Positions 29,751 to 54,832 of a DNA stretch of 64,000 bases are shown here, in pieces. The notes below the pieces were generated by a model. That model had not been told where the DNA came from and did not search any database. It saw only the letters and a program-made list of their open reading frames with translations. Each line of letters opens with the position of its first letter. Positions within the stretch are counted from its first letter, which is position 1. Source of the DNA: Acidobacteriota bacterium (GTDB taxonomy: Bacteria; Acidobacteriota; Terriglobia; Acidiferrales; UBA7541); the NCBI GenBank assembly GCA_003225295.1, contig QHYZ01000067.1:1-64000 (forward strand), given 5' to 3'. The translations under genes and the position numbers were made by a program.

Positions 29751-29975
29751 TTGCCAACCTCCCCGGTCCCAGGCCCGAGAGACTCGAAAACCGTGAACAG
29801 GCAACCAACTTGGAATAATACTGCATATCCCTACAAAATTGAAAACTACCTCCTTCCTCAATGCTAGCCGTAATGCGATCTCGAATGACAATGAAAACAA
29901 ATGTCTTAAATACGATCGAGCTGGCCCAGACCCCGGTTGAGGCTTGCTGGATGTCGGGCCAGTGCTACATCCCTC

Positions 29976-30933: not shown

Positions 30934-30942
30934 GAGGATCTC

Positions 30943-34980: not shown

Positions 34981-35055
34981 GTGTCTCTTGGTGAGTGTTG
35001 GAGATTCGCCGCCGTTGATTTTGCATCTCCCGGTTCTCGGCAACGAACAAAACTC

Positions 35056-37794: not shown

Positions 37795-37841
37795 CGTAAA
37801 TTGTACCGCGAGGGCGCGGACAGCCCACCCAGGGAGGGCGC

Positions 37842-40358
37842 ATGCCGGATGAAAAAGACTCGCGAACGACACCCGCTGATGCTCCAGAGGCCAACGGGAA
37901 TAAGCTTCGCGTGATCGGCGTCCCTCGGCGCAGAGTCGATGCCCGCGCGAAGGTGACCGGCCAAACGCGGTTCGCCGACGACATTTTCCTGCCTAGAATG
38001 GCGCACTGCAAGCTGCTGCGGTCTCCCCATCCTCACGCGCGCATCCGAAAAATCGACACCTCGCGCGCCGCCGCACACCCAGGAGTGTATGTGGTGCTGA
38101 CGGGGAAAGACGTTCCTATCCAGTACGGGATTCTTCCTGTCAGCCAGGACGAGCAAGCCCTTTGTGTTGACCGCGTTAGACACGTGGGAGATCCCGTCGC
38201 TGCCGTCGTGGCGCGTGAGGAACTAACAGCATTTGAAGCGCTGGACTTGATCGATGTCGACTATGAAATCCTGACCACCATCTCCGATCCCCAGGAAGCC
38301 CTGACGACTCCCGAGCCGCGCATCCACGAATACGGCGAAGAGGGGAACATCCACAAACTCGTGGCTCTGGAATTCGGCAACGTGGAAGAAGGCTTTGCCG
38401 AAGCAGATGAAATCTTCGAAGACACGTTTTTCTTCCAAGGAAACACTCATCTTCCCATTGAGCAGCACGCTTCGGTTGCCATCAAGGATCCGGAGGGAAA
38501 GCTGACCGTGTGGTCCAGCACGCAGACCCCTCATTATCTCCATCGTGCGCTAGCCAAGGTGCTGGAACTGCCGGCCGCGCATATTCGCGTGATCGCCACT
38601 CCCAACGGGGGGGCCTTCGGAGGAAAGAGCGACCCGTTCAATCATGAAATCGTGGTGGCCAAGGCCGCACTCTTGCTCGATCGGCCCGTCAAGATCTGTT
38701 TGACGCGTGAGGAAGTTTTTTATTGTCACCGCGGGCGCCATCCGGTGCTGATGAAATTCAAAACTGGTGTGAAAAGGGACGGCGCGATTACTGGAATGCA
38801 TCTCCAGACGTTGATCGACGGTGGCGCGTATGGCTCGTACGGGGTCGCCAGCACGTTCTACGCTGGCGCATTGCAAACCACCACGTATCATATTCCGCGC
38901 TATCGCTATCAAGGCTGTCGCACCTTCACAAACAAACCACCCTGCGGACCCAAGCGCGGGCATGGCACTCCACAACCGCGCTTCGGTCAGGAAGTCCAAC
39001 TCGACAAGATCGCGGAGAGACTCAAGATTGATCCGGCGGATCTGCGGCTCCGCATCGTGGAATCCTCAAACTCCGTGACGGCAAATTTCCTCCAGCTGGG
39101 AACGGTCAATCTCGCCGAATGCATCCGCCGCGTCGCCAAAGTGTCCAATTGGAAAGAAAAATTCCGCAACCTTCCGGAGGGCCACGGCGTCGGTCTGGCT
39201 TGCTCCGCTTATCTGACCGGGGCGGGCCTTCCCATTTACTGGAACAAAATGCCGCACTCGGGAGTGCAACTGAAATTCGACCGCAGCGGCGGCGTAACGA
39301 TTTTCTGCGGGGCTACAGAGATCGGACAGGGATCGGATGATGTTCTCGCCGGAATTGTTGCCGAGGTTCTGGGCATCGACACGTTTGACATTCGGCTGTT
39401 CACCGGCGACACGGACCTCGGGCCAGTGGACCTGGGATCGTATTCGAGCCGCGTCACACTGATGGCCGGAAACGCAGCACTCCAAGCCGCGGAACGCGGA
39501 AAGGCCATCCTTCGAGAAGCCGCGGCGGAAAAACTCCAAGTACCAAAAGAACGGCTGTGCTTTGCTGGGAAACGGGTGTTCGATTCCGCCGCACCGGAAA
39601 AGGGCCTCACCTTCCAGGAAGCTGTTTGCCTGGCCGAAGCTCGTTTCGGCACGATTGGCACGGTGGGCTCCTACACTCCGCCGACGTCTCCCGCGCTATA
39701 CAAGGGCGGCGGTGTAGGGCCGTCTCCGACCTACTCTTATTCCGCTGCCGTCGTCCAAGTGGAAGTAAATTCAGTGACCGGCTGGGTCACCGTTCCCAAG
39801 GTCTGGATTGCGCATGATATCGGCCGCGCGCTGAACCCGACGCTGGTGCGCGGTCAGGTCGAAGGCAGTGTCTACATGGGTCTCGGTGAGGCGCTCATGG
39901 AAGAGCAGGAGTTCCGGCGCCTTCCGAAAAAACTTTCTCACGCGCTCGTTCATAAATTTCCTTCCATCCTGGAATACAAGAGCCCCACCTCGCTAGATAT
40001 GCCCGAGGTTGTCACCGAGCTGATCGAGGAACCTGATCCTCGCGGCCCTTATGGAGCGAAAGAAGTCGGTCAGGGTCCGCTTCTCCCGATCATGCCCGCA
40101 GTCGCCAACGCCGTCTACGACGCCGTCGGTGTGCGGATTGATGAGATTCCCGTCACTCCGGAAAAAATTCTGAAAGCCCTTGCCGAAAAGAAAGCGGGAC
40201 GTGACCCGCGTTTTGGACCGACCGATTTTCCGCATATCCATTGGCCGGAAGCCTTGCGCGTTCCTCCTCCATGGGAAGGGGGCGACGGCCATGCGGTGAA
40301 CGAGGTTCCCCGCCGGCAAAAATCTCGCCAGGAGAAAGAGAAGGTACTCGCTTCATGA
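37842..40358 (+). CDS. hcrA: 4-hydroxybenzoyl-CoA reductase-type molybdopterin subunit
   Basis: 838 residues. It belongs to the xanthine-oxidase family large subunit: GGAFGGKSDPFNHEI (Moco contact), PPCGPKRGHGTPQPRFG in the substrate/Moco loop, GATEIGQGSDDVL, and the C-terminal GPYGAKEVGQGP with the catalytic glutamate. The loop P-P-C-G-P-K-R-G-H-G matches what I recall for HcrA and differs from the RGFG of xanthine dehydrogenase. Expected reaction: reductive removal of the para-hydroxyl of 4-hydroxybenzoyl-CoA to give benzoyl-CoA. Its stop overlaps the start of hcrB (ATGA). Confidence 0.87.
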   Translation: MPDEKDSRTTPADAPEANGNKLRVIGVPRRRVDARAKVTGQTRFADDIFLPRMAHCKLLRSPHPHARIRKIDTSRAAAHPGVYVVLTGKDVPIQYGILPVSQDEQALCVDRVRHVGDPVAAVVAREELTAFEALDLIDVDYEILTTISDPQEALTTPEPRIHEYGEEGNIHKLVALEFGNVEEGFAEADEIFEDTFFFQGNTHLPIEQHASVAIKDPEGKLTVWSSTQTPHYLHRALAKVLELPAAHIRVIATPNGGAFGGKSDPFNHEIVVAKAALLLDRPVKICLTREEVFYCHRGRHPVLMKFKTGVKRDGAITGMHLQTLIDGGAYGSYGVASTFYAGALQTTTYHIPRYRYQGCRTFTNKPPCGPKRGHGTPQPRFGQEVQLDKIAERLKIDPADLRLRIVESSNSVTANFLQLGTVNLAECIRRVAKVSNWKEKFRNLPEGHGVGLACSAYLTGAGLPIYWNKMPHSGVQLKFDRSGGVTIFCGATEIGQGSDDVLAGIVAEVLGIDTFDIRLFTGDTDLGPVDLGSYSSRVTLMAGNAALQAAERGKAILREAAAEKLQVPKERLCFAGKRVFDSAAPEKGLTFQEAVCLAEARFGTIGTVGSYTPPTSPALYKGGGVGPSPTYSYSAAVVQVEVNSVTGWVTVPKVWIAHDIGRALNPTLVRGQVEGSVYMGLGEALMEEQEFRRLPKKLSHALVHKFPSILEYKSPTSLDMPEVVTELIEEPDPRGPYGAKEVGQGPLLPIMPAVANAVYDAVGVRIDEIPVTPEKILKALAEKKAGRDPRFGPTDFPHIHWPEALRVPPPWEGGDGHAVNEVPRRQKSRQEKEKVLAS

Positions 40359-41383
40359 TGCGGCTGCCGGTTTTCGAATTTCGCGCGCCGCGCACGCTCC
40401 AAGAAGCCGCGCGCATTCTAGACGGCGAGAGGGCCAATGCCATGCCGCTCGCTGGCGGCACGGACCTGCTTCCCAACATGAAACGGCGGCAACAGGTTCC
40501 TCGGACGCTGATGAGCCTCCGTCACATTCAGAGCTTGAGCGATATTGAATTGAGCCCTTCCGGCTTGCGGCTCGGTGCGTGCCTCACGCTCGCCGCTATA
40601 GCGGGAGACCCGCGTTTTCGGAATGGCTTGACGGCGCTGGCGCAAGCGGCTTCTTTGGTGGCCACTCCGCAGATCCGCAACTTAGCGACGCTCGGTGGAA
40701 ATGTCTGTCTGGATACGCGCTGCAATTACTACGACCAAAGCTATGAGTGGAGAAAGTCGATCAACTTCTGCCTGAAAAAAGACGGCACGACCTGCTGGGT
40801 TGCTCCGGGAAGTTCAAAGTGCATGGCCGTGTCCTCGACAGACACGGGTCCGGCGCTGATGGCGCTCGGGGCGCGGGTCCGTCTGGTGTCGCACTCGGGA
40901 GAGCGCGAGGTTCTTCTCTCCGATCTGTACAACAATGATGGGATCGACTACATCAAGCGCAGACCGGATGAAATTCTGGCGGAAGTATTGCTGGATTCTT
41001 TGCAGGGATGGAAGAGCACCTACTGGAAACTTCGCCGCCGCGGCTCGTTCGACTTTCCCGTGCTCTCCGTCGCGGCAGCGGCGCGCCTCTCCAGAGATAA
41101 AGTGGTCGAGGGGGCGCACATTGTCGTGGGCGCGGCAGCCTGCCAACCGCTGGCCGCTCGGGAGGCGGCCAACTCGCTGCTAGGCCGCCCGTTGAATCAG
41201 CCGGCCATCGAAGAAGCCGCCGCACTCGCGGCCCGCATTGCCAAGCCGCTGGACAACACGGATTTCGACATGACCTGGCGCAAGAGAGTTACCGCCGAAT
41301 TCGTGGGCTATGCCCTGCGCGAGCTGCGCGGAGACGATGTGCGGTCCGAGCGCGAGAGCTTCACGCGCTATGCTTTCGACTGA
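40355..41383 (+). CDS. hcrB: 4-hydroxybenzoyl-CoA reductase-type FAD/[4Fe-4S] subunit
   Basis: 342 residues from ATG 40355, overlapping the hcrA stop. The FAD-binding signature PLAGGTDLLPNMK and ATLGGNVCLDTRCN are present. The subgroup-defining insertion carries four cysteines at 123, 139, 147 and 156 (spacing 16, 8, 9), the same spacing as the [4Fe-4S] ligands I recall in Thauera HcrB (122, 138, 146, 155). That extra cluster lets the enzyme run in the reductive direction and is absent from ordinary xanthine-oxidase relatives, so this assignment is the strongest evidence for the complex. Confidence 0.9.
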   Translation: MMRLPVFEFRAPRTLQEAARILDGERANAMPLAGGTDLLPNMKRRQQVPRTLMSLRHIQSLSDIELSPSGLRLGACLTLAAIAGDPRFRNGLTALAQAASLVATPQIRNLATLGGNVCLDTRCNYYDQSYEWRKSINFCLKKDGTTCWVAPGSSKCMAVSSTDTGPALMALGARVRLVSHSGEREVLLSDLYNNDGIDYIKRRPDEILAEVLLDSLQGWKSTYWKLRRRGSFDFPVLSVAAAARLSRDKVVEGAHIVVGAAACQPLAAREAANSLLGRPLNQPAIEEAAALAARIAKPLDNTDFDMTWRKRVTAEFVGYALRELRGDDVRSERESFTRYAFD

Positions 41384-41465: not shown

Positions 41466-42710
41466 TCAATTCGGATTCTCGAGGAGCACCGCAATTCCTT
41501 GCCCACCGCCAATGCAGGCCGCGGCGATTCCATAGCGCAGTTTCGAGTGACGGAGTTCACGCGAGAGCGTAAGAGCGAGCCTGATGCCGGTGGCCGCCAG
41601 CGGATGCCCAATCGCAATCGCGCCGCCATTCACATTGAGTTTGTTGCGGTCGATCCGCAGCTCGCGCTCCACAGCGATGAGCTGCGCGGCAAACGCTTCG
41701 TTGATCTCGAATCGATCGATCTGACCTAAGGTGAGCCCGGCGTCACCGATCAGCTTTCGAATCGCCGGCGCCGGCCCCATGCTCATGATCTCCGGTCGCA
41801 AGCCTACCGTGGCTACACTCGCGATACGCGCGAGCGGCTGGATTCCCTTCGATTTTGCATAAGCGCCTGATCCGACTAACGCCGCTGCCGCACCATCCAC
41901 GATAGCGGAACTGTTTCCTCCCGTCTGAACCCCGCCAAAAGCAGGCGGTATCTTCGAGAGCGCTTCGAAAGAAGACGGACGAACGTGAGTATCCACCGTG
42001 AGACTCGCCACTCCCTTGGGCAGCTGAATGCCACGCGGCCGGTAGCCGCTGAGTTCGAAAGTTTCGCTGACCAGGGAAACGATTTCTCCCGACAGAAAAC
42101 AACTCTTTTGCGCCGCGACCGCGCGCGAAAAACTCAATTCGGCAAATCGGTCCACGTCTTCGCGCGTAATCTTATACGTCCCGGCAACCGTTTCCGCGGT
42201 TTCCCCCATGGTGACGCCCGGAGCGGTATCGAGCAGCGCTTCCCACAAGAAATCCTTGAACTCCACCTGGCCCATGCGAAAGCCACTGCGATGAGTAAAA
42301 GCAGCGACAGGATTGCGGCTCATGGATTCCGCACCGACGCAAAGACCAAGTTCGATCTTCTTTAGCGTGATGGCATCGGCAGCCTGGCTGATTGCTTCGA
42401 TGCCCGTGCCGCACACGCGCTGCACGAGCAGCGCCGGGCGGTCGGTGGGAACGCCGGAGTAAAGCCCGATGTGACGCGGCAGGACGTAAGCGTCAAAGCT
42501 GGTTTGCGCCACGCTTCCGGCGGTGACGGAGCCTACATCCGGTGGGGCAATCTTGGTGCGTTCGAATAGCGCACGCGCCACTTTGATGCCCAGGTCGATC
42601 GGCGAGACAAGACCCAACGCCCCACAATAGTCCACAAAAGGCGTCCTGACCCCGTCCAGCAGCCAGATATCCTCGTAGGCGATGAAAAGCCCACTCGTTC
42701 CCGTACTCAT
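41466..42710 (-). CDS. thiolase (acyl-CoA acetyltransferase)
   Basis: 414 residues. Nucleophile C100 is in RVCGTGIEAIS; H369 in GHPLAATG and C399 in AAACIGGGQG complete the active site; NEAFAAQ is the usual NEAF motif. It is the last gene of the minus-strand carboxylase operon, 64 bases after the URO-D-like gene. A thiolase in this place would cleave the aroylacetyl-CoA formed after ketone carboxylation into aroyl-CoA and acetyl-CoA (inference from the known acetophenone pathway). A general beta-oxidation role cannot be excluded. Confidence 0.9.
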   Translation of the reverse strand: MSTGTSGLFIAYEDIWLLDGVRTPFVDYCGALGLVSPIDLGIKVARALFERTKIAPPDVGSVTAGSVAQTSFDAYVLPRHIGLYSGVPTDRPALLVQRVCGTGIEAISQAADAITLKKIELGLCVGAESMSRNPVAAFTHRSGFRMGQVEFKDFLWEALLDTAPGVTMGETAETVAGTYKITREDVDRFAELSFSRAVAAQKSCFLSGEIVSLVSETFELSGYRPRGIQLPKGVASLTVDTHVRPSSFEALSKIPPAFGGVQTGGNSSAIVDGAAAALVGSGAYAKSKGIQPLARIASVATVGLRPEIMSMGPAPAIRKLIGDAGLTLGQIDRFEINEAFAAQLIAVERELRIDRNKLNVNGGAIAIGHPLAATGIRLALTLSRELRHSKLRYGIAAACIGGGQGIAVLLENPN

Positions 42711-42774
42711 GACGTACTTCCCTCGTGCATGGGGAGTCGGCGCGAAACGCTGGTGGCCATCCTTTATACAATAG

Positions 42775-43806
42775 CTAAACCGCGCGCCGAACCCCTTCGA
42801 AAACTTTGATCAGATGCTTCATATCGGTCGTAATCGGAACATCACCAACGGTGGTGACAATACCAGGACGCAGATCCGAGATCCAAGTTGGGATATCCAG
42901 AAAAGCGGGCTTACCGCGTGCCTGTTCCGTTCGAAACGCCTCCAGCGGCAGGGCCATACAAAGGGGGAGGTCACCAGTTGCTCTTGCAACCTCCCGTTGG
43001 CGCAAGGCCATGACCTCCGCAGGCGCGCATTTGACGCAATCCCAGTGCTGTCGAAAGACCAGGTCCCAGTCGAGTTGAGGACGGGGAGCACCGGGGAGAT
43101 GGAGCAGAGGAAGCGCTTCATAGAAGCGCACCACATTGATTGTGGGCGCGAGCAGATTCGCCCAGATATCGCAGCTCTCCACTGAGAGAGCTGGCACAAT
43201 TTCTTCCTGGACGATGATCATTTCCGCTCCGGCCTCCAAGAATGCGGAGGCCATCTGCGTTACGACCGAAGCCGCCAATTCCTGCGCGGCGTCGGATAAG
43301 TCCTCGCTCCGCAAAGTTTCTTTGTGCTCCAACCGGGTGATCCGCGTTGCGAGAGTCAACGGACCGGTGACGCCAGCCATGAGCAGGAAATCGCGGTTCG
43401 GGAGTGCCTTCATCCTTCGGATCACTTCGACAGCGACCGGCACCCGCCCTTTCTTGGCGGCTTCTTCCGGCACGTGCAGGCCCGCTGGCAATTCTCCCAA
43501 CGGCGCGGGACGAGGCCAGTGAATTGTGGGCGCTTGGTCATCCGTTATCCGTTGCAGCGTTGCCCCCAGGGCTTCTACTTCAAGGTAGGGATCGAAGTAG
43601 CAGGCCACCCCGTCGGAGCGCAGATGCGTTCGCATTTGTCTGAGAGCACTTGAAATCTTTGTAGGATTGCCCAGAAATGTGCCCAGTGGGACATTTTCCA
43701 CTTTGGCGCCGAGAGAGAACACAATCGGCAAAAAGAGCGGTCGAGACGGGACAATCCCACTCAGCAGCCCTTTGGCCATCTGCCGGGGAGTGGGACTCTG
43801 TTCCAT
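42775..43806 (-). CDS. uroporphyrinogen decarboxylase-fold protein in the apc5 position
   Basis: 343 residues resembling the URO-D/MetE-like TIM-barrel superfamily: LFLPIVFSLGAKVENV at the start, RDFLLMAGVTGPLTLATRI, AGAEMIIVQEEIVP and the terminal GIVTTVGDVPITTDM. Haem synthesis is unlikely given the context. It begins three bases after the HyuB-like gene, so the two are co-expressed. It holds the place of apc5 in acetophenone carboxylase operons and is close to that subunit in size (about 37 kDa), but I cannot confirm homology. A methyltransferase-like role is another possibility; no corrinoid protein is nearby. Confidence 0.7.
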   Translation of the reverse strand: MEQSPTPRQMAKGLLSGIVPSRPLFLPIVFSLGAKVENVPLGTFLGNPTKISSALRQMRTHLRSDGVACYFDPYLEVEALGATLQRITDDQAPTIHWPRPAPLGELPAGLHVPEEAAKKGRVPVAVEVIRRMKALPNRDFLLMAGVTGPLTLATRITRLEHKETLRSEDLSDAAQELAASVVTQMASAFLEAGAEMIIVQEEIVPALSVESCDIWANLLAPTINVVRFYEALPLLHLPGAPRPQLDWDLVFRQHWDCVKCAPAEVMALRQREVARATGDLPLCMALPLEAFRTEQARGKPAFLDIPTWISDLRPGIVTTVGDVPITTDMKHLIKVFEGVRRAV

Positions 43807-43809
43807 CAG

Positions 43810-45870
43810 CTACGGCCTGAAAACCGGTCCAGTCGCCTTGGCATCTGGCCAGGTTCCATAGAATTGCAGTGCTTCCTTCGGTGGAGTCTTCTTGTTCCAC
43901 TCCTGGTGGAAACGATCGAACGATACCCCGCGCGCCAGTCGGGCATTTCTCTCTTCCAGGCGCTGTTGCTTGGTCTTTTCCACATCGATTTTGCGGCGCT
44001 CGGGTTCATAGGCTATCTTGTAGATGTTCTCGGCTGTCCAATCCGAAATGATGCTCTTTTTCAGATCCTCCATCACGGATTCGGCATCTCGTTCTAGTGG
44101 ATCACCGTAGCCAGGGCCCCCACCACTGAACCCGAAGAGTAAATCACCCTCCTGATAGACCTTGGGAGTGCGCGCCACGAGCTCGTATTTCCAATCACCT
44201 TGAATGGTGTTTTTCTGCAGCATATCCAGGAGATCCATGGTGAGCGGAGAATCCGCTTTTTTCATTTCGTCCAGCAGACCGGGCTTGCGCACGCTGATTC
44301 CAGGAATCGTCGAAGAGGCATATCCCCCGAAAAGAGGCTGGCCCAGCGGCACCTTGCTTCCGTTTCCCATGCACATGGACACCATATCGCTGACTTTGTG
44401 GATCATCCACTGCTGGACAGCACCCGATCCGCCCCGATGATGCCCGTGGCCGCAGGAGTCTTTCCAGTGCTGGGAGAGCATCACGGTCAGAGGCAATTCA
44501 CTCTCAACCTGCTCCGAGTCCGGAGCACGGCCAAACGCACACCAGGCGAACCCGTAGGAATCCATGCCATCGTTGGCCGCTCGCCCGCCCTGTCCCTGAG
44601 TGTTGAGGGAGAAAGAGAGGACGTCGGAAACCGCCAGTTTCCACTGCGAGAGGCCCGCGCAAATCTGCGCGGTGTGTTGACTGCCCGGTGCAGCGGTCAC
44701 CTGCTGCCAAAGCCCCGCGCAGGAGAAGGCCATCTTGGCGAAACTGTTGTGCGTGGCGTTGCGACACTGCATTCCGATATAGACGCAACAGCTGGTCGCC
44801 GCGGATTTGTCGGGATTGAGGATGATGTTGGGCGGAAAAATGAAATCGATGGAGGCAAATGTGGAGCTGCAAATGGGCAGGTCGTGAAAAACATATTCGT
44901 ACATGAAATTCGCGATGTGTCCAACCACCGCCTGCGAATGAACGTTGTATGAAGACGGATTTTCCGGAGAAGTCCCTTCGAAATCGAAAATGAGCTTCTC
45001 GCCTTTCTTGGTCAACGTGAGGTAGCATGCTCGCACAAGAGCCGGTGTCCAGCCGATGGCATCGTTGAAGAGGACGGCGCGAAACTTCCCTTCCGGCAAA
45101 GATTTGATTTTCTGACGGGCGCCGGACTCCGCAGTTTCGAGCATCTTGCGAAGCAAACCGACGAGATACTCTTCGCCGCGCTTCTCGACCAATTCGAGCA
45201 ATCGCATGCGGACTCTGTCTGCCGTGGTACACCTAGCGCGCAAGTCGGAGATAAACATCGCCGGCGCACGAAGACCATACACTGAATAAAATTCCAGAAA
45301 GTCATTCCGCAGTTGATAGTTTTCCCCGATCTTGATGGGTGGCAGGTTCAGCCCCTCTTCGAATCGTGACTTGGCGCTAACCGGCATGCCGCCAGGTTCA
45401 ATCGCACCGGTTTCCGTGGTGTGCAAAGCAGCGGTCGTCCATGCCAATAGCTTGCCCTTATGGAAGACCGGCATCAGCGCCACCTGGTCCGGATTATGAA
45501 TACCTCCATAGAGGGCGTCATTGGTGTACCAGATGTCGCCAGCGTGAATCCCCGGATTTTGCGAGTAATACTTGAGAATAAATTTGATGACGATCGGCTG
45601 GATGATGGCATGCAGATAGGTGCCGCAAGCCGCGTTGATCAGATCCCCTCCCGCCGTGAAAATCGCCACCATGGAATCGCCCGACACCCCAAAGTAGCTT
45701 CGCGAAGACCGGATGAAAATCTCCATGGCCTCATCCAGGATGTCGTTGGTGACCTGCACGCCGATCTCATAGTCGCCTTGACGGAGGGTCTTCGCGCAAT
45801 GCTCCTCGTGGGAAGAAACCTTCGCCGGCTTCAGCCATTCCAGTTTTTCGGCTAAGGTGGGTATGGGCAT
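43810..45870 (-). CDS. acetone/acetophenone carboxylase-type HyuB subunit
   Basis: 686 residues (about 76 kDa), HyuB superfamily. The stretch GDIWYTNDALYGGIHNPDQ has the YGGIHNPDQ variant associated with acetone/acetophenone carboxylases, not the GGTHLPD variant of hydantoinases and oxoprolinases. Other blocks are SSYNVHSQAVVGHIANF, KDSCGHGHHRGGSGAVQQW and GFSGGGPGYGDPLERD. In the carboxylase this subunit is thought to join the enol-phosphate to activated CO2. Size and position match Apc4 (beta). It sits 26 bases after the HyuA-like gene. Confidence 0.85.
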   Translation of the reverse strand: MPIPTLAEKLEWLKPAKVSSHEEHCAKTLRQGDYEIGVQVTNDILDEAMEIFIRSSRSYFGVSGDSMVAIFTAGGDLINAACGTYLHAIIQPIVIKFILKYYSQNPGIHAGDIWYTNDALYGGIHNPDQVALMPVFHKGKLLAWTTAALHTTETGAIEPGGMPVSAKSRFEEGLNLPPIKIGENYQLRNDFLEFYSVYGLRAPAMFISDLRARCTTADRVRMRLLELVEKRGEEYLVGLLRKMLETAESGARQKIKSLPEGKFRAVLFNDAIGWTPALVRACYLTLTKKGEKLIFDFEGTSPENPSSYNVHSQAVVGHIANFMYEYVFHDLPICSSTFASIDFIFPPNIILNPDKSAATSCCVYIGMQCRNATHNSFAKMAFSCAGLWQQVTAAPGSQHTAQICAGLSQWKLAVSDVLSFSLNTQGQGGRAANDGMDSYGFAWCAFGRAPDSEQVESELPLTVMLSQHWKDSCGHGHHRGGSGAVQQWMIHKVSDMVSMCMGNGSKVPLGQPLFGGYASSTIPGISVRKPGLLDEMKKADSPLTMDLLDMLQKNTIQGDWKYELVARTPKVYQEGDLLFGFSGGGPGYGDPLERDAESVMEDLKKSIISDWTAENIYKIAYEPERRKIDVEKTKQQRLEERNARLARGVSFDRFHQEWNKKTPPKEALQFYGTWPDAKATGPVFRP

Positions 45871-45896
45871 GAGTCTCCTGGCTTCCCGCCGATGGC

Positions 45897-48017
45897 CTAA
45901 CCTTCCAGAATCCCAAGACCGCGTTCGTCCACGGTGAAGGTCATCGGAGACGGCACGACCAGCGTCGTGTATTCTCCTTCGACCACCGCCGGCCCTTCGA
46001 TCACATTGCCGGGACGCAAGGACTCGTACGCGTAAATCGGTGTGGTCTTAAAGGATCTTGCCTCCGGCCAGAACACCGGCCTTTGGCCCTTTCGCGCGCC
46101 GCCGGGATCGCTTCCTTCAACCTTCATCCTAGGCATTTCGACTTTCTTCGTCGGAACGATGGCCTTCAATATGAAACTCTCGATAAAAACTCCGCCTTCG
46201 GGATTCACGACGAAGGGACTGAAGGCCTCGCTGAATTCCTTTTCGAAAGCCGCACAGAGAGCGTGAACGTCTTCCTGGCCACAGAGCGCCAGCAGCGGAG
46301 AGAGCGTACGCTTCACATGAAATTGCCCTCCATAAAGCATGTCGAGTTCGAGCACAAAAGCTGCCCCCGGAATGTCTAGCCCATCCGCCAGCAGATCCCG
46401 CTTCGCCTGTTCCATTAGATTTTCGACCGTGCCATTAAATGTAGAGAACTCCTCGGTAGGTTTCTGCGTCCCCGGCTCCAGCAAAGTAATTTTCTTCGAG
46501 GCTTCATAGACATGCATGATGTCCATGGTGGAAGACCCGAAAGCGCAGAAGACCGGAGAGAAATGGAAGACCACGGCTTTTCCTACGTCGCCCTTGTATC
46601 CCTCGACGTGTGTCGCACCCGCTCCGCCGCCAACGAACAAAACAAAATCTTCCGGACTGTACCCGCGCAAATGAACTTCCTTCATGATGGCAGAGGCCAT
46701 ATTTCCATTCACGATCTTTCGAATGACCTCCGCAGCCCGCTCGCTATCGATCCCCAGCGGCTTGGCAATCTTGTCCCGGATGGCCTGGACTGCAGCATTC
46801 TTATTCAACCGTATCCTGCCGCCAAAATAATATTCGGGGTTGATGTAGCCAAGCACCACATCCGCATCCGTAACGGTCGGTTCTTTTCCTCCACGGTTAA
46901 AGCAGGCCGGCCCCGGCATCGAGCCAGCGCTTTTCGGTCCGACCTGCAACTGATTCTGCAACAGCTTGTTCGGCCAGGCGATCGATCCCCCGCCTGCCCC
47001 GATCGACAGCGTCTTGATCATGGTGATGCCCACCATCCACTTATCGATGATCGGCCGGAAATCATAACTTCGCACGCTGTCCTTCACCACCAGTCCGACG
47101 TCAAAGCTGGTACCTCCCATATCCGTCATGATCACGTTCTGATAGCCAAGCGTTTTTGCGACGTGATGCGCGCCCATCAGCCCCGACACGGGACCGCTGT
47201 TAAATGTCCGGCTTGCCGTGGTGCGAAATACCTCCGCAATCCCACCGGAACTCTGAATCATCAACAATGGCTTCTTGTAACCGCGCTCGCGCAGCTTATC
47301 CCACATGGCGGACAGTTCGATCTGCATGGAGCGCTGCAAGTATGCGTCGAGAATCGCCGCGAGGGTCCGCTCATATTCGCCCAGCTTGCCCACCACTTGC
47401 CCCGCAAGCACCACCGGCAGATAGCCAATGTGAAACTCCTTGTACTCGTCCCGAATGATCTCCTTCACGCGCTTTTCGTGCGCGGGATTCAGAAACCCCC
47501 AAAGCAGCGACACCACAAATCCCCTTGCGCCACGATTCACCAAATAGCGGACTTTCCTCCGCAGATCGTTTTCATCCAGAACTCGAACCACGCTGCCGCG
47601 AGAGTCGATGCGCTCTTTCACGCCCACAATCATGTCGCGCGGAATCAGCGGCTCTGGTTTTTTCTGGATCGCCAGGTTCCGCCGTTCGGCCACCCGCGTT
47701 CCATCGATCCACTGGGCACCGCGGCCGATCAGCACCACATCCTCATGACCCTCGGTGGTGATCAACCCCAACCGCGGCCCTTTCCTCTCAATGAGGCGAT
47801 TCATCGCAATCGTGGTGGAATACCGAATCATGTCGATGGAAGGAAGCAGCTCCACCATCTTGAGGCTGAGCGCGCTCGCGCCTTCTTCAATCACCCTCGA
47901 GAAGCAAACGGAAAGATCGTACGGCGTGGTAGGAACTTTCTTGATCAGAGTTTTCCCGCCGAAATTGAGCACCAGATCAGTAAACGTCCCGCCTACGTCG
48001 ATATCAATGGAATTCAT
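45897..48017 (-). CDS. acetophenone carboxylase-like HyuA subunit (apc3 position)
   Basis: 706 residues (about 77 kDa), HyuA superfamily with an actin-like ATPase fold: SIDIDVGGTFTDLVL at the N-terminus (phosphate 1), YSTTIAMNRLIERKGPRLGLITTEGHED, MTDMGGTSFDVGLV (phosphate 2), GPACFNRGGKEPTVTDADVVLG and LFVGGGAGATHVEG. It probably phosphorylates the ketone enolate or bicarbonate at ATP expense. Its start overlaps the stop of the small zinc subunit by four bases (ATGA), implying coupled translation and a stoichiometric complex. Confidence 0.88.
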   Translation of the reverse strand: MNSIDIDVGGTFTDLVLNFGGKTLIKKVPTTPYDLSVCFSRVIEEGASALSLKMVELLPSIDMIRYSTTIAMNRLIERKGPRLGLITTEGHEDVVLIGRGAQWIDGTRVAERRNLAIQKKPEPLIPRDMIVGVKERIDSRGSVVRVLDENDLRRKVRYLVNRGARGFVVSLLWGFLNPAHEKRVKEIIRDEYKEFHIGYLPVVLAGQVVGKLGEYERTLAAILDAYLQRSMQIELSAMWDKLRERGYKKPLLMIQSSGGIAEVFRTTASRTFNSGPVSGLMGAHHVAKTLGYQNVIMTDMGGTSFDVGLVVKDSVRSYDFRPIIDKWMVGITMIKTLSIGAGGGSIAWPNKLLQNQLQVGPKSAGSMPGPACFNRGGKEPTVTDADVVLGYINPEYYFGGRIRLNKNAAVQAIRDKIAKPLGIDSERAAEVIRKIVNGNMASAIMKEVHLRGYSPEDFVLFVGGGAGATHVEGYKGDVGKAVVFHFSPVFCAFGSSTMDIMHVYEASKKITLLEPGTQKPTEEFSTFNGTVENLMEQAKRDLLADGLDIPGAAFVLELDMLYGGQFHVKRTLSPLLALCGQEDVHALCAAFEKEFSEAFSPFVVNPEGGVFIESFILKAIVPTKKVEMPRMKVEGSDPGGARKGQRPVFWPEARSFKTTPIYAYESLRPGNVIEGPAVVEGEYTTLVVPSPMTFTVDERGLGILEG

Positions 48018-48400
48018 AGAGCGACCTCGAGACGCTGCGCACGAATAAACAATTCGCCCTTCCGCAGCCTCTCTTTCAAGCTGTCCAGATCAATCTCAAT
48101 GTCCCAGGTGATGGGGTGCCCCGGCGGAAGGTATTCCGTCTCGATCTGCGTGCCGCAACCAGGACAGTAAATCTCCACAATCCGCACCCAAAGCGGGTCC
48201 GGAGAAAAGTTGAATTCAGCTAAAACCAGCGGTGGATGAATTTCCCGCGGGTCGCGGTCATATAGCAAACAGCCCTTCTTGTAATTCTCCCGCGCGGGCC
48301 CAATTTCATGCCCGCAGCGGTTACACAGCCACCGCTCCTGTTGAACATCCAAATCAAGGTATTCTGTGACCCGGATGCGGCTCTGCTCGTCGGACGCCAT
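48014..48400 (-). CDS. acetone carboxylase gamma-like zinc subunit (apc2 position)
   Basis: 128 residues (about 15 kDa) from ATG 48400 with GAGGG upstream; the longer open frame is spurious. Two C-x2-C pairs, C26/C29 (CNRCGHEIG) and C79/C82 (CPGCGTQIE), form a zinc-ribbon-like site. The segment GCLLYDRDPREIHPP resembles acetone carboxylase gamma. Its presence between two HyuA-type genes is what separates a carboxylase operon from a hydantoinase operon, and its mass fits the 15-kDa Apc2. Confidence 0.82.
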   Translation of the reverse strand: MASDEQSRIRVTEYLDLDVQQERWLCNRCGHEIGPARENYKKGCLLYDRDPREIHPPLVLAEFNFSPDPLWVRIVEIYCPGCGTQIETEYLPPGHPITWDIEIDLDSLKERLRKGELFIRAQRLEVAL

Positions 48401-48447
48401 CGCGTTTCCCTCGTTTCCGTCAAGGTGTACTGCCAAATCTCTTTTTT

Positions 48448-50445
48448 CTAACGTCTGTTCAGTTTCGCGTTTCCGAATTGGTCGACCACTAGTGTCCATC
48501 CTTCCGGAACAAAATAAGTGCTGTTGGCCCCTTCGAGCACCGCGCAGCCTTCCACACGATTCCCTGGCTGCAGCAACTCCCAGTGAAAAAGCTGCGCTTC
48601 GCCCTTCGAACTTCCCCACGCAACTCTTCTAGCCCCTTTGATCGCGTGGGTCGAATCGGTTCCCTGTAGAGGCCTTTCCACAAGGGCCGGCTTGGGCATA
48701 GCTTTGCGAATTTGAACGCGCAGCAAGTCAATCACCATCAAGTCAGCAGCAACCCCAGTTTTTGCCTCGCACATGGCGCGAAGATTTCCGCCGTCTCCAA
48801 TGGACGCTTCAGAAAGGACGATCGCCCCAGCCGTCTTGCCGGGAACAGCGACTTCGAGCTCTATCGAGTATTCGATTCCGTCCGGTTTGATCCCCTCACC
48901 GAGCAGATCTCTCAGGCTCTCCGCCTTGATCTCCTGAATCATGCCATTGAGTCCGTCCGCGGCAGCATTCGAAATCGAACTGATCGGCGGCGTACGCTCA
49001 TACACATGAGAAATGTCGGAAACGGAGGATCCGAACGCGCTGAACACGGGGCCAAGCGAAAAGAAATAAGCCTGCTCCAGTCCAACCCTCTCCGCAACGC
49101 CGCACGCAAACAGCCCACCGTTTCCGCCATAGGCAAAAAGCGTGTAGCCGGCAAGATTTTGCCGCAACTCCGTACCGGCATGCCCAATCAGATTGGCCAC
49201 GGCGGTGAACGCTATCCCGATGACTTTCCGGCAAGCTTCCTCAATCGATATTTTCAGCGGCCCCGCCACCAGCTCCTGAATCACACCGCGCGCTGCGTCC
49301 CCTTGAATCGCTTTCGTGCCTCCAAGAAAATACTCCGGATTGATAAGCCCCGAAGCCACGAATGCATCCGTGAGGGTGGGCCTGACTCCCCCGAGGCCAT
49401 AGCAAGCCGGCCCGGGAAGCGATCCCATACTCTCGGGCCCCAGCGTTATTTCTCCAGACTCGCCGTTTTCCCGAGCCTTGACCACGCTCCCACCGCCAAG
49501 GGCCATGGAGCGCAGAAACGGAAGTGAAATCTCGACGGGAATGCCAAAAATATCCGAAGGCTTCCTTTGCACCGCCTCCGAATCTCGCAACACGCTCACT
49601 TTCGCCGTGGTGCCTCCAACATCCAGCGCAATGACGTCGCCTGTCTTGTAAACTTTGGCAAGATGCGCGCTGCCGTGAATCCCGAGAATCGGACCGGACT
49701 CAATCGTATCGATCGCCTTGGTCTTGGCAATCCCCGCAACGCCTCCGTTGATGTGGCTCACCAGAAACGTTCCGATGTAGCCGTGCTCTTGCCGCAGATC
49801 GTCTTCTGCTTTAAAAAGCGTAGCCGCCAGCGCGCCGTGCGTGTAGGCATTGATGATCGCGCAATAGGTTCGCGTCGCGTCGTCGGCGCTTTTTGAAATA
49901 TCACTTCCGGCCAAGACGGGAACGGAGCCTAGGAAGTGATCCGGGTACTGCTGATCAATGATGCGTTTGATTTGCATCTCCCGTTCCGGACTGCGGTGCG
50001 CGCCCTCGAGACTGACGCAGATGCGCCGCACTCCGCCTTCCAAGAGTGCGCGCACGCTGTTCATGATCTCCGTCTCGCTGGTGGAAACGGCCACTCCAAT
50101 CACGTCGCGTTCGGAGAGTATCCCTTTCAGCACCACGCTGTGCGCGTCCGGTGCGTACAGATTTTTTTCGTGACCGCGCGAAACCAGTAATCCAATCCTC
50201 GGTCCCCGGGATTCCGCGAGTACGTTGGAAGTAATCGTGGTGGACCAGCGGATAAGCTCGAGGTTCTCTAGGAAGGCGTCCACATCGGAGTAACCCAGCT
50301 GGGTAGCTCCCTCTCTGAGGCATTCGAACAGGCACACCGTCAAGTCGTGCGGCGTAGTGTCAACCTTCACGCACACCAGCTTCTGGCCATCGATGAAAAT
50401 CCCGTCCGTCAAGGTTCCGCCGATGTCGATATCCGCGGTCAGCAT
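48448..50445 (-). CDS. acetophenone carboxylase-like HyuA subunit (apc1 position)
   Basis: 665 residues (about 71 kDa), a second, divergent HyuA paralogue: ADIDIGGTLTDGIFI, RWSTTITSNVLAESRGPRIGLL, VIALDVGGTTAKVSVL, GPACYGLGGVRPTLTDAFVASG and LFAYGGNGGLFACG. Two different HyuA-type subunits in one operon are typical of acetophenone carboxylase (alpha and alpha-prime). Forty-seven bases separate it from the zinc subunit. ATG 50445 starts eight bases after the isochorismatase-like stop. Confidence 0.87.
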   Translation of the reverse strand: MLTADIDIGGTLTDGIFIDGQKLVCVKVDTTPHDLTVCLFECLREGATQLGYSDVDAFLENLELIRWSTTITSNVLAESRGPRIGLLVSRGHEKNLYAPDAHSVVLKGILSERDVIGVAVSTSETEIMNSVRALLEGGVRRICVSLEGAHRSPEREMQIKRIIDQQYPDHFLGSVPVLAGSDISKSADDATRTYCAIINAYTHGALAATLFKAEDDLRQEHGYIGTFLVSHINGGVAGIAKTKAIDTIESGPILGIHGSAHLAKVYKTGDVIALDVGGTTAKVSVLRDSEAVQRKPSDIFGIPVEISLPFLRSMALGGGSVVKARENGESGEITLGPESMGSLPGPACYGLGGVRPTLTDAFVASGLINPEYFLGGTKAIQGDAARGVIQELVAGPLKISIEEACRKVIGIAFTAVANLIGHAGTELRQNLAGYTLFAYGGNGGLFACGVAERVGLEQAYFFSLGPVFSAFGSSVSDISHVYERTPPISSISNAAADGLNGMIQEIKAESLRDLLGEGIKPDGIEYSIELEVAVPGKTAGAIVLSEASIGDGGNLRAMCEAKTGVAADLMVIDLLRVQIRKAMPKPALVERPLQGTDSTHAIKGARRVAWGSSKGEAQLFHWELLQPGNRVEGCAVLEGANSTYFVPEGWTLVVDQFGNAKLNRR

Positions 50446-50452
50446 GATGGCC

Positions 50453-51133
50453 TCATGGCTTTGTTGTTTTGATGGCCCTTACAAATTCTTCCGCGCGAAT
50501 CGTCCACCCAAAGAAATTCTCGACGTTGAAAAGGGTCGCTTCATGCAGCGTCGCCGGACCCGCTGGCATGGCGCCATCCGCAATCAAGATCGGCCAGTAA
50601 TCCTGGAAATAGGCGTCCCGCAGAGTGGACTCCACGCAAACGTTTGTAGCAATGCCCACGAAAAAAAGATACCGGATGCCCCGCGTCCGCAGTTGAGAAT
50701 CCAGCGTCGTGCCGGCAAACCCGCTGTACCTCGTTTTGATCACCACCAGGTCCCCGGGCTCCGGGTTCAGGTCTTCCACGATGGCGAAATCCCAGGTGCC
50801 TTCCGTCAGGAGTTTCCCTTTCAGCTCCGGTCGGCAACGCATCAGATGCATGGCCAGTTCTTTATGCCAATTCGGAGAATGCGGCCCTCCGCTGTTGCTC
50901 AAGTCCGGTTTGTATCCCATCTGAACATAGACAATCGGGACGCTGGCCTGCCGCGCCGCGTTCACCACGGTCTTGATGGAGCTGACAACACGCGGGGCAT
51001 TGGAAATGTCCACCCCCGCGAGGTCCAGCATCCCGCCCTTCGAGGCAAACGCATTCTGCATGTCCACGACAACGACCGCGCACTTGGTCAGCTCAACCTC
51101 AATCGGCTCCGGCTTCGAATCTAGCTTCAGCAT
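50453..51133 (-). CDS. isochorismatase-family cysteine hydrolase
   Basis: 226 residues with the family triad D24 (VVVDMQNAF), K133 (VVIKTRYSGFAGT) and C166 (GIATNVCVEST) and the usual cis-peptide region before the cysteine. The family includes N-carbamoylsarcosine amidase, biuret hydrolase and nicotinamidase, so an amide or carbamoyl substrate is more likely than isochorismate. It is the first gene of the seven-gene operon. It has no counterpart in the acetophenone carboxylase operon I recall, so it may remove a carbamoyl or carboxyl-phosphate side product or process a different substrate. Confidence 0.87.
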   Translation of the reverse strand: MLKLDSKPEPIEVELTKCAVVVVDMQNAFASKGGMLDLAGVDISNAPRVVSSIKTVVNAARQASVPIVYVQMGYKPDLSNSGGPHSPNWHKELAMHLMRCRPELKGKLLTEGTWDFAIVEDLNPEPGDLVVIKTRYSGFAGTTLDSQLRTRGIRYLFFVGIATNVCVESTLRDAYFQDYWPILIADGAMPAGPATLHEATLFNVENFFGWTIRAEEFVRAIKTTKP

Positions 51134-51391: not shown

Positions 51392-54300
51392 TTAGAACGT
51401 GTACCTGAATGACAGCTGGAACTGACGCGCGTTAAATACCTTTCTCGGCTTGCCGAAGTCCGGATTGGGGAAGGGAACGCCGCCAGAGCAAGTTCCGATA
51501 AACGAGAGCGGGCTGTTCTGAATTTTTTTTGAGACGGCATCGTTGTAACTGTGAGGCGCCGCGCCGCAGAAGTCAGGCGAGGTATATACGGAGTCCACCT
51601 CGTCAACGTTATCCCGGTTCATGATGTTGAAGGCGTCCGCCGCTAACTCCAATTTATGGTGCTCGCGGAGCGAGAACGCGCGCGAAAAGCGTAGGTCAAC
51701 GGTCTTCAACTTGTCCCCCCAGTAGGTATTGCGGCCGGCCAGCCCGACCCGGTCGGTAACCGGATTGGTATCATTATTGGCGTCATGTCCGACGAAAATG
51801 GTGAAAGGGCGAGCGCCCTGAAGAGTAATGATGCCGCTGACCTCCCAATCCCTCAAGGCCATATTGGTATCCTTGGATTTTGAGGCCGCGACGGTGAAGT
51901 TCGCCAGGAATCGATGGCGAACGTCCTGGTTGGAATTCGCGCGCTCCAAAGATCGGTGGTAGAGATCTTGGGGCGTACTGACAAAGGTGGTAAAGGTTCC
52001 ATCGTCCAGCGTCTTTGAGAACGTGTAGTTGGCGTTGAGCCGGAAATACTGCCCCACCTTCTCGGTGGCCGAGAGCGTCAAGCCATGGTAAACGCTGTTA
52101 CCGCTGTTGTCGGTGTAGTAGAGCAGACCGACCGGGATGAGCACGCTCTGGAAGTAGCTCTTGCCGGCGGTCCAATCGGCGGGCGGCGGAGTGAAGTTGC
52201 CGAATGCATTCGATCCGCACTGATACCAGCCCGTTGTCGCGCTGGGGCTGGCCCCGCCACTCGTGTTTTCCGGGCAAACGTTCAAGTTCTCGGCACGGAC
52301 TTGGTGGTGCGCGGAAACGAAAAGATAGCCGGCGTTGACCACCAGACCATGTCCAAGCTCGCGGTCAATCTCGAGGCTTCCCTGCTCGGCATACGGCATC
52401 TTGCTTCCGGTTTCGACAGTTCCGTCACCCACAGTGGAAAACTCCCCATTGGGGAATTTGGCGGTGGGGAAGGGATTCGTCTCGAGGGCCACAGGCGTGT
52501 AGGTCCCGTTTAATAGCAAGGCGGTGGCCGCATCCGCCGGCTCCTTGCCAAAGGGCGACGGTGGCGGAACAAACGGTAGCTGGTTCAGGGCGTACGTGGC
52601 ATTGTATCCACCCTGTCGAATGCCCGGCAGGGGGTAAAAGCTGGTGCAAGGATCTGCCGGGACCAGGCAGAATTTTGTCGGCCGCTGCGGATGCGTGACG
52701 AAGAAGAACCCAATGTTGTAGCGGTCGCTGAACAGACCGAACCCAGCGCGAATCACCGTGTGTTTGTCCGGAGAATACGCGAGGCCGACTCTCGGCTGGA
52801 AGGCCTTGTAGTAGTTGTTAACGGTATCGCCGAGCCCGGTCTCATAATCCCAGCGCACTCCATAGTTCAAGGTGAATTTGGAAGTCACGCGCCACTGGTC
52901 TTCGACGAAAAGTCCGACATAGCCGTGATTCCGGTCCGAAAAGTAGTTGGGAGTCTCGTTGGGCAGGTAGGCGTTATTCCAGGTCAGCGGCGAGGGAAAG
53001 GTTGGTGCCGTGGCCGCCGTACCATCAACAACAGAGGTGTCTCCCGATCCGAGGGGAGACGGCCAGAACACCACTGGTACGCCATTCAGGAAATCCGCAG
53101 GATTGGGACCCGCCAGGGCAGGGATCGGCGGCAGATTCAGCGGGGGGCCATTCTGGGCACCGAGTGCCAGAGGACATGGTCCCTCACCGGGATTCGAAGG
53201 CAGGTAACTGGGGTCCCCGGGGAGGAGCGCCGGATTCCTAACGTGCTGCACATAGTTGGCAAAATCCACCAGGCAATTAACTCCAGGGAGGACGATGCGC
53301 ATGGGAGAGAAACCCGGCCAGATGATGTGATCGTTGATGCGGTTATAGTCGACGCCAAATTTAATCAGGTGCGAGCCCTTCACCCAATATAGAGAGTCGG
53401 CAAATTGTCCGCGGCTCTCATAAGTGGCATCAAAGACACCGAAGTTATGGCCCATCATGACCTCGTTCACCAGGTCCAGGTTCGGCTGTCCGGTCGCGCC
53501 AGGGAAAGTCGAGTGACGCCGCGCGTACTGCCCCAGCGCGGTGTTCACCAGGCTGGGCGTTACTTGCGAAGACACAATGCCCACGAGAGACTGATCGCGC
53601 AAGAAGTTATGATGCCCGCTCGAGGAAGCCGCGAGACCGCCCCCATCCAGGGTGTCGCCGACCAGCACATTAAGGCTGCGCGCATCCTCGATGCTGTAGC
53701 GCAGCGAGAGGCGATTGTCCTTGTTGATCTGCTGGTCGAGTTTGAAGAAACCTCTGTCGGAATCCTGTGTCTTTAGGGTGCTTTCCTGCTCCGGAGCAAT
53801 TCCAAGCAGGGCTTTCGCCTGGTTAATCAAATTGAAATTTCTGAGCAAGCTCGGGGATTGGATGGCCGCTTCCCCGCGCCGCTGCCCTTCGTAATTCACA
53901 AAGAAGAAGGTCTTGTCCTTCTTGATGGGACCGCCAAGCGTGCCGCCGAACTGGTTTTGCCGGAGCGTATTCGGCACCCCATTTCCAGAGACGGGCAAGA
54001 TCCCCTGTTGCAGGAGGTTATGCGCGTTGAGAGCACTGTTCTCTACATAATCGTAAAGCGAACCGTGCAGGTCGTTGGTTCCGGATTTGGTGATGATGTT
54101 GACGATGCCGCCCAAGGCGCGGCCCTGCTCGGCCCCGAAGCCGTTATTGACCACGCGAAATTCGCTGACCGCTTCCTGGGAAGGAGTGGCACGCTGGGAG
54201 CCGGTAGCGGTGTTGATGGTGTCCGCGCCATCCACGGTGACCAGATTGCTGAAGTCGCGCATGCCGCCGAAGGAGATGCGCGTGACTTCAGATTCAGTAA

Positions 54301-54832
54301 AGGTCGACTGGAGACTGGTGCGGCCGGTGGTGACGCCAGGAGTCAGCAGAACGAAATCGGTGAACAACCGGCCACTGATGGGCAGCGACTCAATCTGCGT
54401 GGTGCTGATCACCTGGCTGACCTCCGTCCGCGTCGGCTCTACGGGCGGCGTCTCGGTCGTCACAATCACCTTTTCCGCGCTCGATGCGACTTTCACGGTG
54501 ACATCAATGGTGGCGGCTTGTCCGACGGTCAGAACGATACCGGTCTGGGTCGACTTCGCAAACCCGGAGGCTTCGGTCGTCAATTCGTATCGTCCGGGGG
54601 GAAGGCTGGCAAGGACATACAATCCGTTCTCATTCGAAACGGCCGTGTAGGTGCGATTCGTTTCCGTCTCTCGCGCCGTGATGGTAGCTTTCGCGACCGT
54701 GCCTCCGCTCTCGTCTCGTACCGACCCGTTCAGCTGCGCCACGCTGGCGCCGACTTGCGAGAAGGATGGTTTGGCCAAAGCGGCGAAAATGGCCACCCCC
54801 AGGACGGTCAATAAACATAGACGTCGCCTCAT
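51392..54832 (-). CDS. TonB-dependent outer-membrane receptor with carboxypeptidase-regulatory-like domain
   Basis: 1146 residues. A signal peptide of about 25 residues is followed by a carboxypeptidase-regulatory-like module (LNGSVRDESGGTVAKATITA... LPPGRYELTTEASGF, about 33-120). Next come a plug domain (ISTTQIESLPISGRLFTDF, FGGMRDFSNLVTVDGADT, GGIVNIITKSGTN) and a long beta-barrel that ends in aromatic FQLSFRYTF. This is the Oar-like class expanded in Acidobacteriota. The substrate is unknown. It lies 258 bases downstream of the carboxylase operon's first gene and on the same strand upstream of it, so co-regulation is possible. Confidence 0.92.
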   Translation of the reverse strand: MRRRLCLLTVLGVAIFAALAKPSFSQVGASVAQLNGSVRDESGGTVAKATITARETETNRTYTAVSNENGLYVLASLPPGRYELTTEASGFAKSTQTGIVLTVGQAATIDVTVKVASSAEKVIVTTETPPVEPTRTEVSQVISTTQIESLPISGRLFTDFVLLTPGVTTGRTSLQSTFTESEVTRISFGGMRDFSNLVTVDGADTINTATGSQRATPSQEAVSEFRVVNNGFGAEQGRALGGIVNIITKSGTNDLHGSLYDYVENSALNAHNLLQQGILPVSGNGVPNTLRQNQFGGTLGGPIKKDKTFFFVNYEGQRRGEAAIQSPSLLRNFNLINQAKALLGIAPEQESTLKTQDSDRGFFKLDQQINKDNRLSLRYSIEDARSLNVLVGDTLDGGGLAASSSGHHNFLRDQSLVGIVSSQVTPSLVNTALGQYARRHSTFPGATGQPNLDLVNEVMMGHNFGVFDATYESRGQFADSLYWVKGSHLIKFGVDYNRINDHIIWPGFSPMRIVLPGVNCLVDFANYVQHVRNPALLPGDPSYLPSNPGEGPCPLALGAQNGPPLNLPPIPALAGPNPADFLNGVPVVFWPSPLGSGDTSVVDGTAATAPTFPSPLTWNNAYLPNETPNYFSDRNHGYVGLFVEDQWRVTSKFTLNYGVRWDYETGLGDTVNNYYKAFQPRVGLAYSPDKHTVIRAGFGLFSDRYNIGFFFVTHPQRPTKFCLVPADPCTSFYPLPGIRQGGYNATYALNQLPFVPPPSPFGKEPADAATALLLNGTYTPVALETNPFPTAKFPNGEFSTVGDGTVETGSKMPYAEQGSLEIDRELGHGLVVNAGYLFVSAHHQVRAENLNVCPENTSGGASPSATTGWYQCGSNAFGNFTPPPADWTAGKSYFQSVLIPVGLLYYTDNSGNSVYHGLTLSATEKVGQYFRLNANYTFSKTLDDGTFTTFVSTPQDLYHRSLERANSNQDVRHRFLANFTVAASKSKDTNMALRDWEVSGIITLQGARPFTIFVGHDANNDTNPVTDRVGLAGRNTYWGDKLKTVDLRFSRAFSLREHHKLELAADAFNIMNRDNVDEVDSVYTSPDFCGAAPHSYNDAVSKKIQNSPLSFIGTCSGGVPFPNPDFGKPRKVFNARQFQLSFRYTF

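Follow-up and report, generated by a model that had tools for sequence, protein, structure and literature searches.

Can an enzyme of the acetophenone carboxylase (Apc) type be recognised in an acidobacterium, and on which ketone would it act? The question is raised by seven genes at positions 41466-51133 of the window (the whole stretch of 64,000 nucleotides analysed here, i.e. positions 1 to 64,000 of contig QHYZ01000067.1 from the Acidobacteriota assembly GCA_003225295.1), which an original prediction, made from the letters of the DNA, had taken for an operon of a ketone carboxylase related to acetophenone carboxylase. Our analysis suggests, with a probability of roughly 0.6, that the operon encodes a complete, biotin-free and ATP-dependent Apc-type carboxylase, and that the clade of this enzyme acts most likely on a 4-hydroxyphenyl ketone, e.g. 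4-hydroxyacetophenone.

The seven minus-strand open reading frames (ORFs) are all open and of the sizes first given for them, and the intergenic gaps along the operon are 7, 47, -4, 26, 3 and 64 bases, which bears out the described row of co-directional genes with gaps of -4 to 64 bases. The Pfam scores all lie far above the cut-offs, with 173-266 bits for Hydantoinase_A/B, 123 bits for Acetone_carb_G, 150-168 bits for the thiolase, 137 bits for the isochorismatase and 51 bits for the URO-D domain. The arrangement is not due to chance, because it is kept in about 20 acidobacterial genomes; these relatives are metagenome-assembled genomes (MAGs) of Terriglobia / Candidatus Acidiferrales, some of their contigs being those of members of the window genome's own GTDB genus and family, in agreement with the acidobacterial host that had been proposed.

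The comparison with curated models and with solved structures gives the same assignment of the core subunits: the two HyuA proteins, the zinc protein and the HyuB protein score best as ApcA/ApcC, ApcB and ApcD, well above caprolactamase, and among solved structures each is matched best by one of the four chains of 5l9w, the Aromatoleum Apc core. The individual values are 650 bits for ApcA (NF042960; 5l9w_b, 3e-161; 42% identity to the Aromatoleum subunit), 187.5 bits for ApcB (NF042974; 5l9w_C, 4e-49; 62%), 1056 bits for ApcC (NF042975; 5l9w_B, 1e-294; 61%) and 896 bits for ApcD (NF042976; 5l9w_A, 1.5e-252; 51%). The conserved sites are retained as well: ATP motifs are present in both kinases, alpha (ApcC) and alpha-prime (ApcA), the latter together with the bicarbonate-site residues E248/D274/K281; ApcB has 4/4 Zn cysteines; ApcD has the metal ligands D65/H125/D128/H150; the R/KERiDsxG fingerprint reads KERIDSRG at position 134 of ApcC, and ApcA has none.

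The remaining subunit is provided by the URO-D-like gene, which was present as first listed, but whose identity had been missed. Among PDB sequences, it is closest to Aromatoleum ApcE (9fou, 3.4e-15; 25% identity), and the AlphaFold2 model that was built from 24 relatives, with a predicted local distance difference test score (pLDDT) of 89.5, matches the fold of 9fou first (E 2e-17), followed by MtaA and uroporphyrinogen decarboxylases; the alignment includes a Panacagrimonas homologue that passes the NF042977 ApcE equivalog cut-off. By sequence and by predicted fold, the gene product is the epsilon subunit ApcE, and therefore the operon is predicted to encode the whole five-subunit enzyme. 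A methyltransferase or decarboxylase was considered for this gene and ruled out, ApcE being the best match in both comparisons; in addition, the protein has HLP where MtaA has its HxC zinc motif.

Membership of the Apc branch was judged by the features described by Weidenweber et al. (PMC5214803), where the beta subunit is about 50 aa shorter than in acetone carboxylase (Acx) and the gamma subunit has about 128, not 168 aa. The window operon has the gene order apcA-B-C-D(-E), a beta subunit of 686 aa and a gamma subunit of 128 aa, against 776 and 168 aa in Acx; the fingerprint in alpha only, the ATP motifs of both kinases, the Zn cysteines, the metal site and the epsilon subunit, identified through 9fou, all conform to the Apc branch. 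Neither the two-subunit hydAB arrangement of hydantoinases and oxoprolinases, which is devoid of gamma, alpha-prime and epsilon subunits, nor the three-subunit acxABC arrangement with its long subunits is found here. In a quick maximum-likelihood tree of 111 proteins, with an outgroup of two proteins and a divergent pair from locus L132, both ApcC and ApcA are placed within the Apc clade, each in an acidobacterial branch (support 99 and 100) that also holds one MAG labelled Deltaproteobacteria; with these few outgroups, acetone carboxylase and caprolactamase fall outside the clade. A clustering of the HyuA proteins with hydantoinases or oxoprolinases, which would have refuted the original prediction, is thus not seen. 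All subunits score below the cut-offs curated for the NCBIfam equivalogs of acetophenone carboxylase (1250, 250, 1500 and 1500 bits for ApcA to ApcD; 450 bits for NF042977, where ApcE scores 70), and we therefore class the enzyme as Apc-type, not as acetophenone carboxylase proper.

Operons of this grade occur in 19/95 genomes of the order and 4/36 of the genus, and none was found in a sample of 395 other genomes from across the phylum; therefore, the operon is patchy within one order. A search of 396 genomes of the phylum with NF042976 gave no other match of Apc grade, the next best reaching 247 bits. The operon is carried by about 20 acidobacterial MAG loci, with ApcC 76-85% identical, and our literature search found no paper on Apc in acidobacteria. 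Two records carry labels at variance with their grouping: L013, labelled Deltaproteobacteria, has an ApcC that is 79% identical and groups with acidobacteria, and L025, labelled Klebsiella, has an ApcC that is 60% identical and groups with Gammaproteobacteria MAGs; in both cases, the MAG was probably mis-binned or given a wrong label. A further Apc-like system, which is divergent, is seen in a congener (L132:3711-12402, G428:C2), in the order thiolase, ApcE-like, HyuA, ApcB, ApcC (44%) and ApcD (36%), with E1-type genes nearby.

The substrate is approached here through the substrate pockets and through the gene context of the relatives. In ApcC, the seven published pocket positions are retained save L81M, which is also common outside the acidobacterial clade, and Q344K; K344 is invariant among the acidobacterial sequences, and the one other sequence to have it, L013, groups with these. 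In ApcD, whose pocket positions were mapped by alignment to the caprolactamase pocket (PMC8453981), the acidobacterial clade shows M362Y/F (Y in the window), T365M, M414V and I498M, together with G395Q, at positions that hardly vary in Aromatoleum-type, actinobacterial, gammaproteobacterial, chloroflexal and archaeal Apc; changes affect 5/12 pocket positions against 44/679 columns (hypergeometric p 0.0005, a value that ignores relatedness and depends on a mapping of low identity). The clade has thus replaced nearly constant residues in both mapped substrate pockets, which is reported here as new.

As for the gene context, which gives the second new finding, the operon runs on into thiolase, thioesterase and PobA (4-hydroxybenzoate 3-monooxygenase) at five loci from three genera (L002, L006, L117, L123 and L131); in L006, the ligase, thiolase, thioesterase and PobA all lie 3' of apcE, and its PobA scores 613 bits against a subfamily cut-off of 351, and 534 bits against an equivalog cut-off of 539. 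PobA was not found beside apc in any of 38 non-acidobacterial loci, nor in a search of the window genome; it is enriched in apc genomes (15/19 vs 24/76, p 0.0004). In the window, the operon adjoins a reductase-like set, followed by boxD/R/C/B. PobA in the relatives, taken with the reductase and box genes beside the window operon, points to 4-hydroxybenzoyl-CoA as the product of the thiolase, and hence to a 4-hydroxyphenyl methyl ketone of the 4-hydroxyacetophenone type as the likely substrate.

From the subunits, conserved sites, thiolase and neighbours, which are all read from the sequence, we infer the substrate and the following steps. ApcC would phosphorylate an aryl methyl ketone in its enol form, and ApcA would make carboxyphosphate; ApcD, together with ApcB and with ApcE as the docking subunit, would join the enol phosphate with the carboxyphosphate to give an aroylacetate, which a CoA ligase encoded nearby would activate and the operon thiolase would split into aroyl-CoA and acetyl-CoA. 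In the window genome, the adjoining reductase would then dehydroxylate 4-hydroxybenzoyl-CoA, and the adjoining box genes would degrade the product; in the relatives, 4-hydroxybenzoyl-CoA would be hydrolysed and then hydroxylated by PobA. The wider proposal, which we consider evenly balanced, is that a separate Apc clade, so far acidobacterial, carboxylates free 4-hydroxyacetophenone-type plant ketones with ATP, i.e. with neither biotin nor phosphorylation of the phenol, and passes 4-hydroxybenzoyl-CoA either to thioesterase and PobA or to the reductase and the box pathway.

The thiolase, whose presence in the operon was recognised from the start, scores 358 bits, above the cut-off, with TIGR01930 and is kept in the operons of relatives (77-81% identical in L002, L006, L009, L018 and L117). 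The benzoylacetyl-CoA thiolase of Aromatoleum aromaticum is "so far unknown" (PMC4729919), and the operon offers a candidate for this step of the Apc pathway. Two ligases are candidates for the activation of the aroylacetate: the PaaK-type ligase of the box unit, which is the single match in the genome to the PaaK ligase linked with apc in relatives (33% identity), and a FadD-like ligase with homologues, 66-70% identical, near apc in L003, L014 and L016. A copy of the in-operon ligase of L006 was sought elsewhere in the window genome, with distant matches only.

If the substrate were plain acetophenone (e.g. from ethylbenzene), it would be turned into benzoyl-CoA and degraded by the adjoining box genes, and the reductase would be unrelated; this would suit the nearest characterised enzyme, which is the Aromatoleum acetophenone carboxylase, the full boxB/boxC/boxD/boxR set next to the operon and the largely retained ApcC ketone pocket, but both mapped pockets are altered where other Apc are nearly constant, the last gene of the relatives' operon encodes PobA, an enzyme for 4-hydroxybenzoate, and many apc genomes of the order have no boxB, making it an unlikely reading. 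The relationship with an ATP-dependent ketone carboxylase that had first been proposed is thus supported by the tree, the identities and the complete set of subunits, but its substrate is probably not acetophenone, because the pockets are altered and the relatives' operon carries PobA. A different aryl ketone, e.g. acetovanillone, pungenol (3,4-dihydroxyacetophenone) or one with a longer chain, would be compatible with the polar pocket changes, which do not fix the ring substituents accepted, and with the methyltransferase-type genes that adjoin apc in L004, L018, L021, L047 and L053. We hold such a substrate to be rather improbable, as PobA and 4-hydroxybenzoyl-CoA reductase are specific to an unsubstituted 4-hydroxy ring, and no O-demethylase was identified within the window. 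Isochorismatase-family amidohydrolases act after hydantoinases in the degradation of creatinine, so that an ATP-dependent amide or lactam hydrolase of the hydantoinase/oxoprolinase type, with the isochorismatase-family hydrolase cleaving an N-carbamoyl product, may be considered; it would belong to the same superfamily, and the QS motif of ApcC is common to caprolactamase. The presence and conservation of ApcA, ApcB and ApcE, which are found in Apc only, the position of ApcC and ApcA in the tree, and a thiolase, CoA ligase, thioesterase and PobA that would have no place in such a pathway make this reading very improbable; hydantoinases, moreover, have two subunits only (PMC5214803).

Several observations, besides the equivalog scores, weigh against a carboxylase of 4-hydroxyphenyl ketones. 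The association of PobA with apc is confounded by the relatedness of the clades; the pocket mapping of ApcD rests on a low-identity caprolactamase alignment; ApcC of the clade has QS, not HN, at 264-265; the window operon has no CoA ligase, a gene that in relatives lies within the operon or upstream of it; and the isochorismatase-family gene, which stands before apcA in roughly half the loci from acidobacteria and scores 297.5 bits with the RutB model (under the cut-off of 378), has no place in the proposed pathway. In addition, the genus keeps the box-reductase unit also where apc is absent, and genomes with apc show no enrichment of boxB (7/19 vs 32/76); because of this, the position of the unit is suggestive only, and its adjacency to apc could be accidental.

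Among known systems, ApcABCDE of Aromatoleum aromaticum (PDB 5l9w core, 9fou epsilon), the single Apc enzyme characterised so far (PMC5214803), which this organism uses for acetophenone with and without oxygen (PMC4729919), has the same five subunits, gene order, motifs, and Zn and metal sites; the window enzyme differs by its separate acidobacterial branch, its changed pocket residues, a thiolase in place of the bal ligase, the additional isochorismatase gene and the link of the acidobacterial operons to 4-hydroxybenzoate metabolism. Acetone carboxylase AcxABC is likewise an ATP-dependent ketone carboxylase, an activity that is predicted for the window enzyme, and its gamma subunit also has four cysteines, but it has three longer subunits in the order acxABC and lies outside the Apc clade. 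CapAB (caprolactamase/hydantoinase) has the alpha and beta folds and the metal site in common with the window enzyme, but consists of two subunits, hydrolyses amides and scores 97-331 bits with the window subunits. Systems for hydroxyacetophenones are HpeHI-HpeCBA of Rhodococcus rhodochrous GD02, Acv of SYK-6 and XccABC of Aromatoleum; this degradation is known to proceed via kinases and a biotin carboxylase (PMC9618137). The route proposed here would come to the same end as the Hpe pathway, in which a hydroxyphenyl methyl ketone is carboxylated and 4-hydroxybenzoate released, but the latter uses phosphorylation of the phenol and a biotin-dependent carboxylase of another family (PMC9618137). 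Hydroxyacetophenones are known lignin products and defence compounds of spruce needles (PMC9618137; PMC6935585). If the proposed reading is true, uncultured soil acidobacteria gain a hydroxyacetophenone route with chemistry unlike that of the biotin-dependent Hpe pathway; from a second clade of the Apc family, branching deeply and with an altered pocket, one could learn what determines the choice of substrate in this family, and whether the epsilon subunit is a general feature of it.

Table 1. Genes of the carboxylase operon and of its surroundings in the window.
Feature	Coordinates	Strand	Size or score
Isochorismatase-family cysteine hydrolase (RutB-like), operon gene 1	50453..51133	-	226 aa; PF00857 136.6 bits
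apcA, alpha-prime subunit, second ASKHA kinase (proposed bicarbonate activation)	48448..50445	-	HyuA, 665 aa
apcB, small zinc-finger gamma subunit	48014..48400	-	128 aa
apcC, alpha subunit, ASKHA kinase, predicted ketone activation	45897..48017	-	HyuA, 706 aa
apcD, beta subunit, metal site and predicted carboxylation pocket	43810..45870	-	HyuB, 686 aa
apcE, epsilon subunit, URO-D fold	42775..43806	-	343 aa
Thiolase, predicted aroylacetyl-CoA to aroyl-CoA + acetyl-CoA	41466..42710	-	414 aa
hbcB, 4-hydroxybenzoyl-CoA reductase beta-like	40355..41383	+	TIGR03195 256 bits, under cut-off 404.6
hbcA, 4-hydroxybenzoyl-CoA reductase alpha-like (Mo subunit)	37842..40358	+	TIGR03194 794 bits, under cut-off 994.6
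hbcC, 2Fe-2S subunit of reductase	37279..37794	+	TIGR03193 172 bits
PaaK-type acyl-CoA ligase of box unit; candidate aroylacetate-CoA or aroate-CoA ligase	34981..36375	+	
boxB, benzoyl-CoA 2,3-epoxidase	32667..34088	+	TIGR03225 884.6 bits, cut-off 499
boxC, 2,3-epoxybenzoyl-CoA dihydrolase	30943..32625	+	TIGR03222 918 bits, cut-off 712
BoxR-like regulator (helix-turn-helix and shikimate-kinase domain)	29995..30933	+	PRK08154 396 bits, cut-off 204
boxD, 3,4-dehydroadipyl-CoA semialdehyde dehydrogenase	28176..29996	-	PRK11903 777 bits, cut-off 444
Large outer-membrane TonB-receptor-like protein	51392..54832	-	Assigned by reading the sequence; no NCBIfam match
FadD-like acyl-CoA ligase; second candidate for aroylacetate activation	57439..59007	-	

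The box-reductase unit occupies positions 28176-41383 in the order boxD/R/C/B, amidohydrolase, (PaaK ligase), TetR and the three-subunit 4-hydroxybenzoyl-CoA-reductase-like set, and recurs across the genus (L135-L140, L143 and L144). The alpha and beta subunits of the reductase set were assigned by best model, TIGR03194 being the best of 13 models for hbcA, and the gamma subunit by position, the TIGR03193 score of hbcC being the highest of nine such genes in the genome. The hbcB product has an extra cysteine loop (C123, C139, C147 and C156), which presumably corresponds to the 4Fe-4S loop of the Thauera reductase. The true start of boxD is probably inside the ORF, the PRK11903 match beginning at residue 83. 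BoxA reductase gave no match in the window genome, though BoxB and BoxC match strongly. It is unusual for one unit to combine an epoxidase that depends on oxygen with a reductase that is typically anaerobic, and our literature search found no paper on the combination of the reductase with the box pathway, or on Acidobacteria with boxB. The box genes were also considered as proof of a benzoyl-CoA product, and were rejected as such: boxB shows no association with apc across the order, and the unit that it forms with the reductase genes occurs independently of the apc operon.

Other genes are met beside apc in some of the relatives: Meth_synt_2, MTHFR, AprA-type methyltransferase and pyrroloquinoline quinone (PQQ)-dehydrogenase genes are seen in some of L004, L018, L021, L047 and L053, and may point to methoxylated or alcohol precursors. 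A homologue of the TonB-receptor-like protein precedes apc in many relatives. Further along the window, positions 55084-63373 hold genes for thiamine pyrophosphate (TPP)-dependent E1 alpha/beta, the FadD-like ligase, a DUF5938/saccharopine-dehydrogenase-like protein, an MFS transporter and an IclR regulator; several of these have homologues beside apc in L003, L006, L014, L015 and L016, and the genes of this stretch may belong to the same catabolic island as apc.

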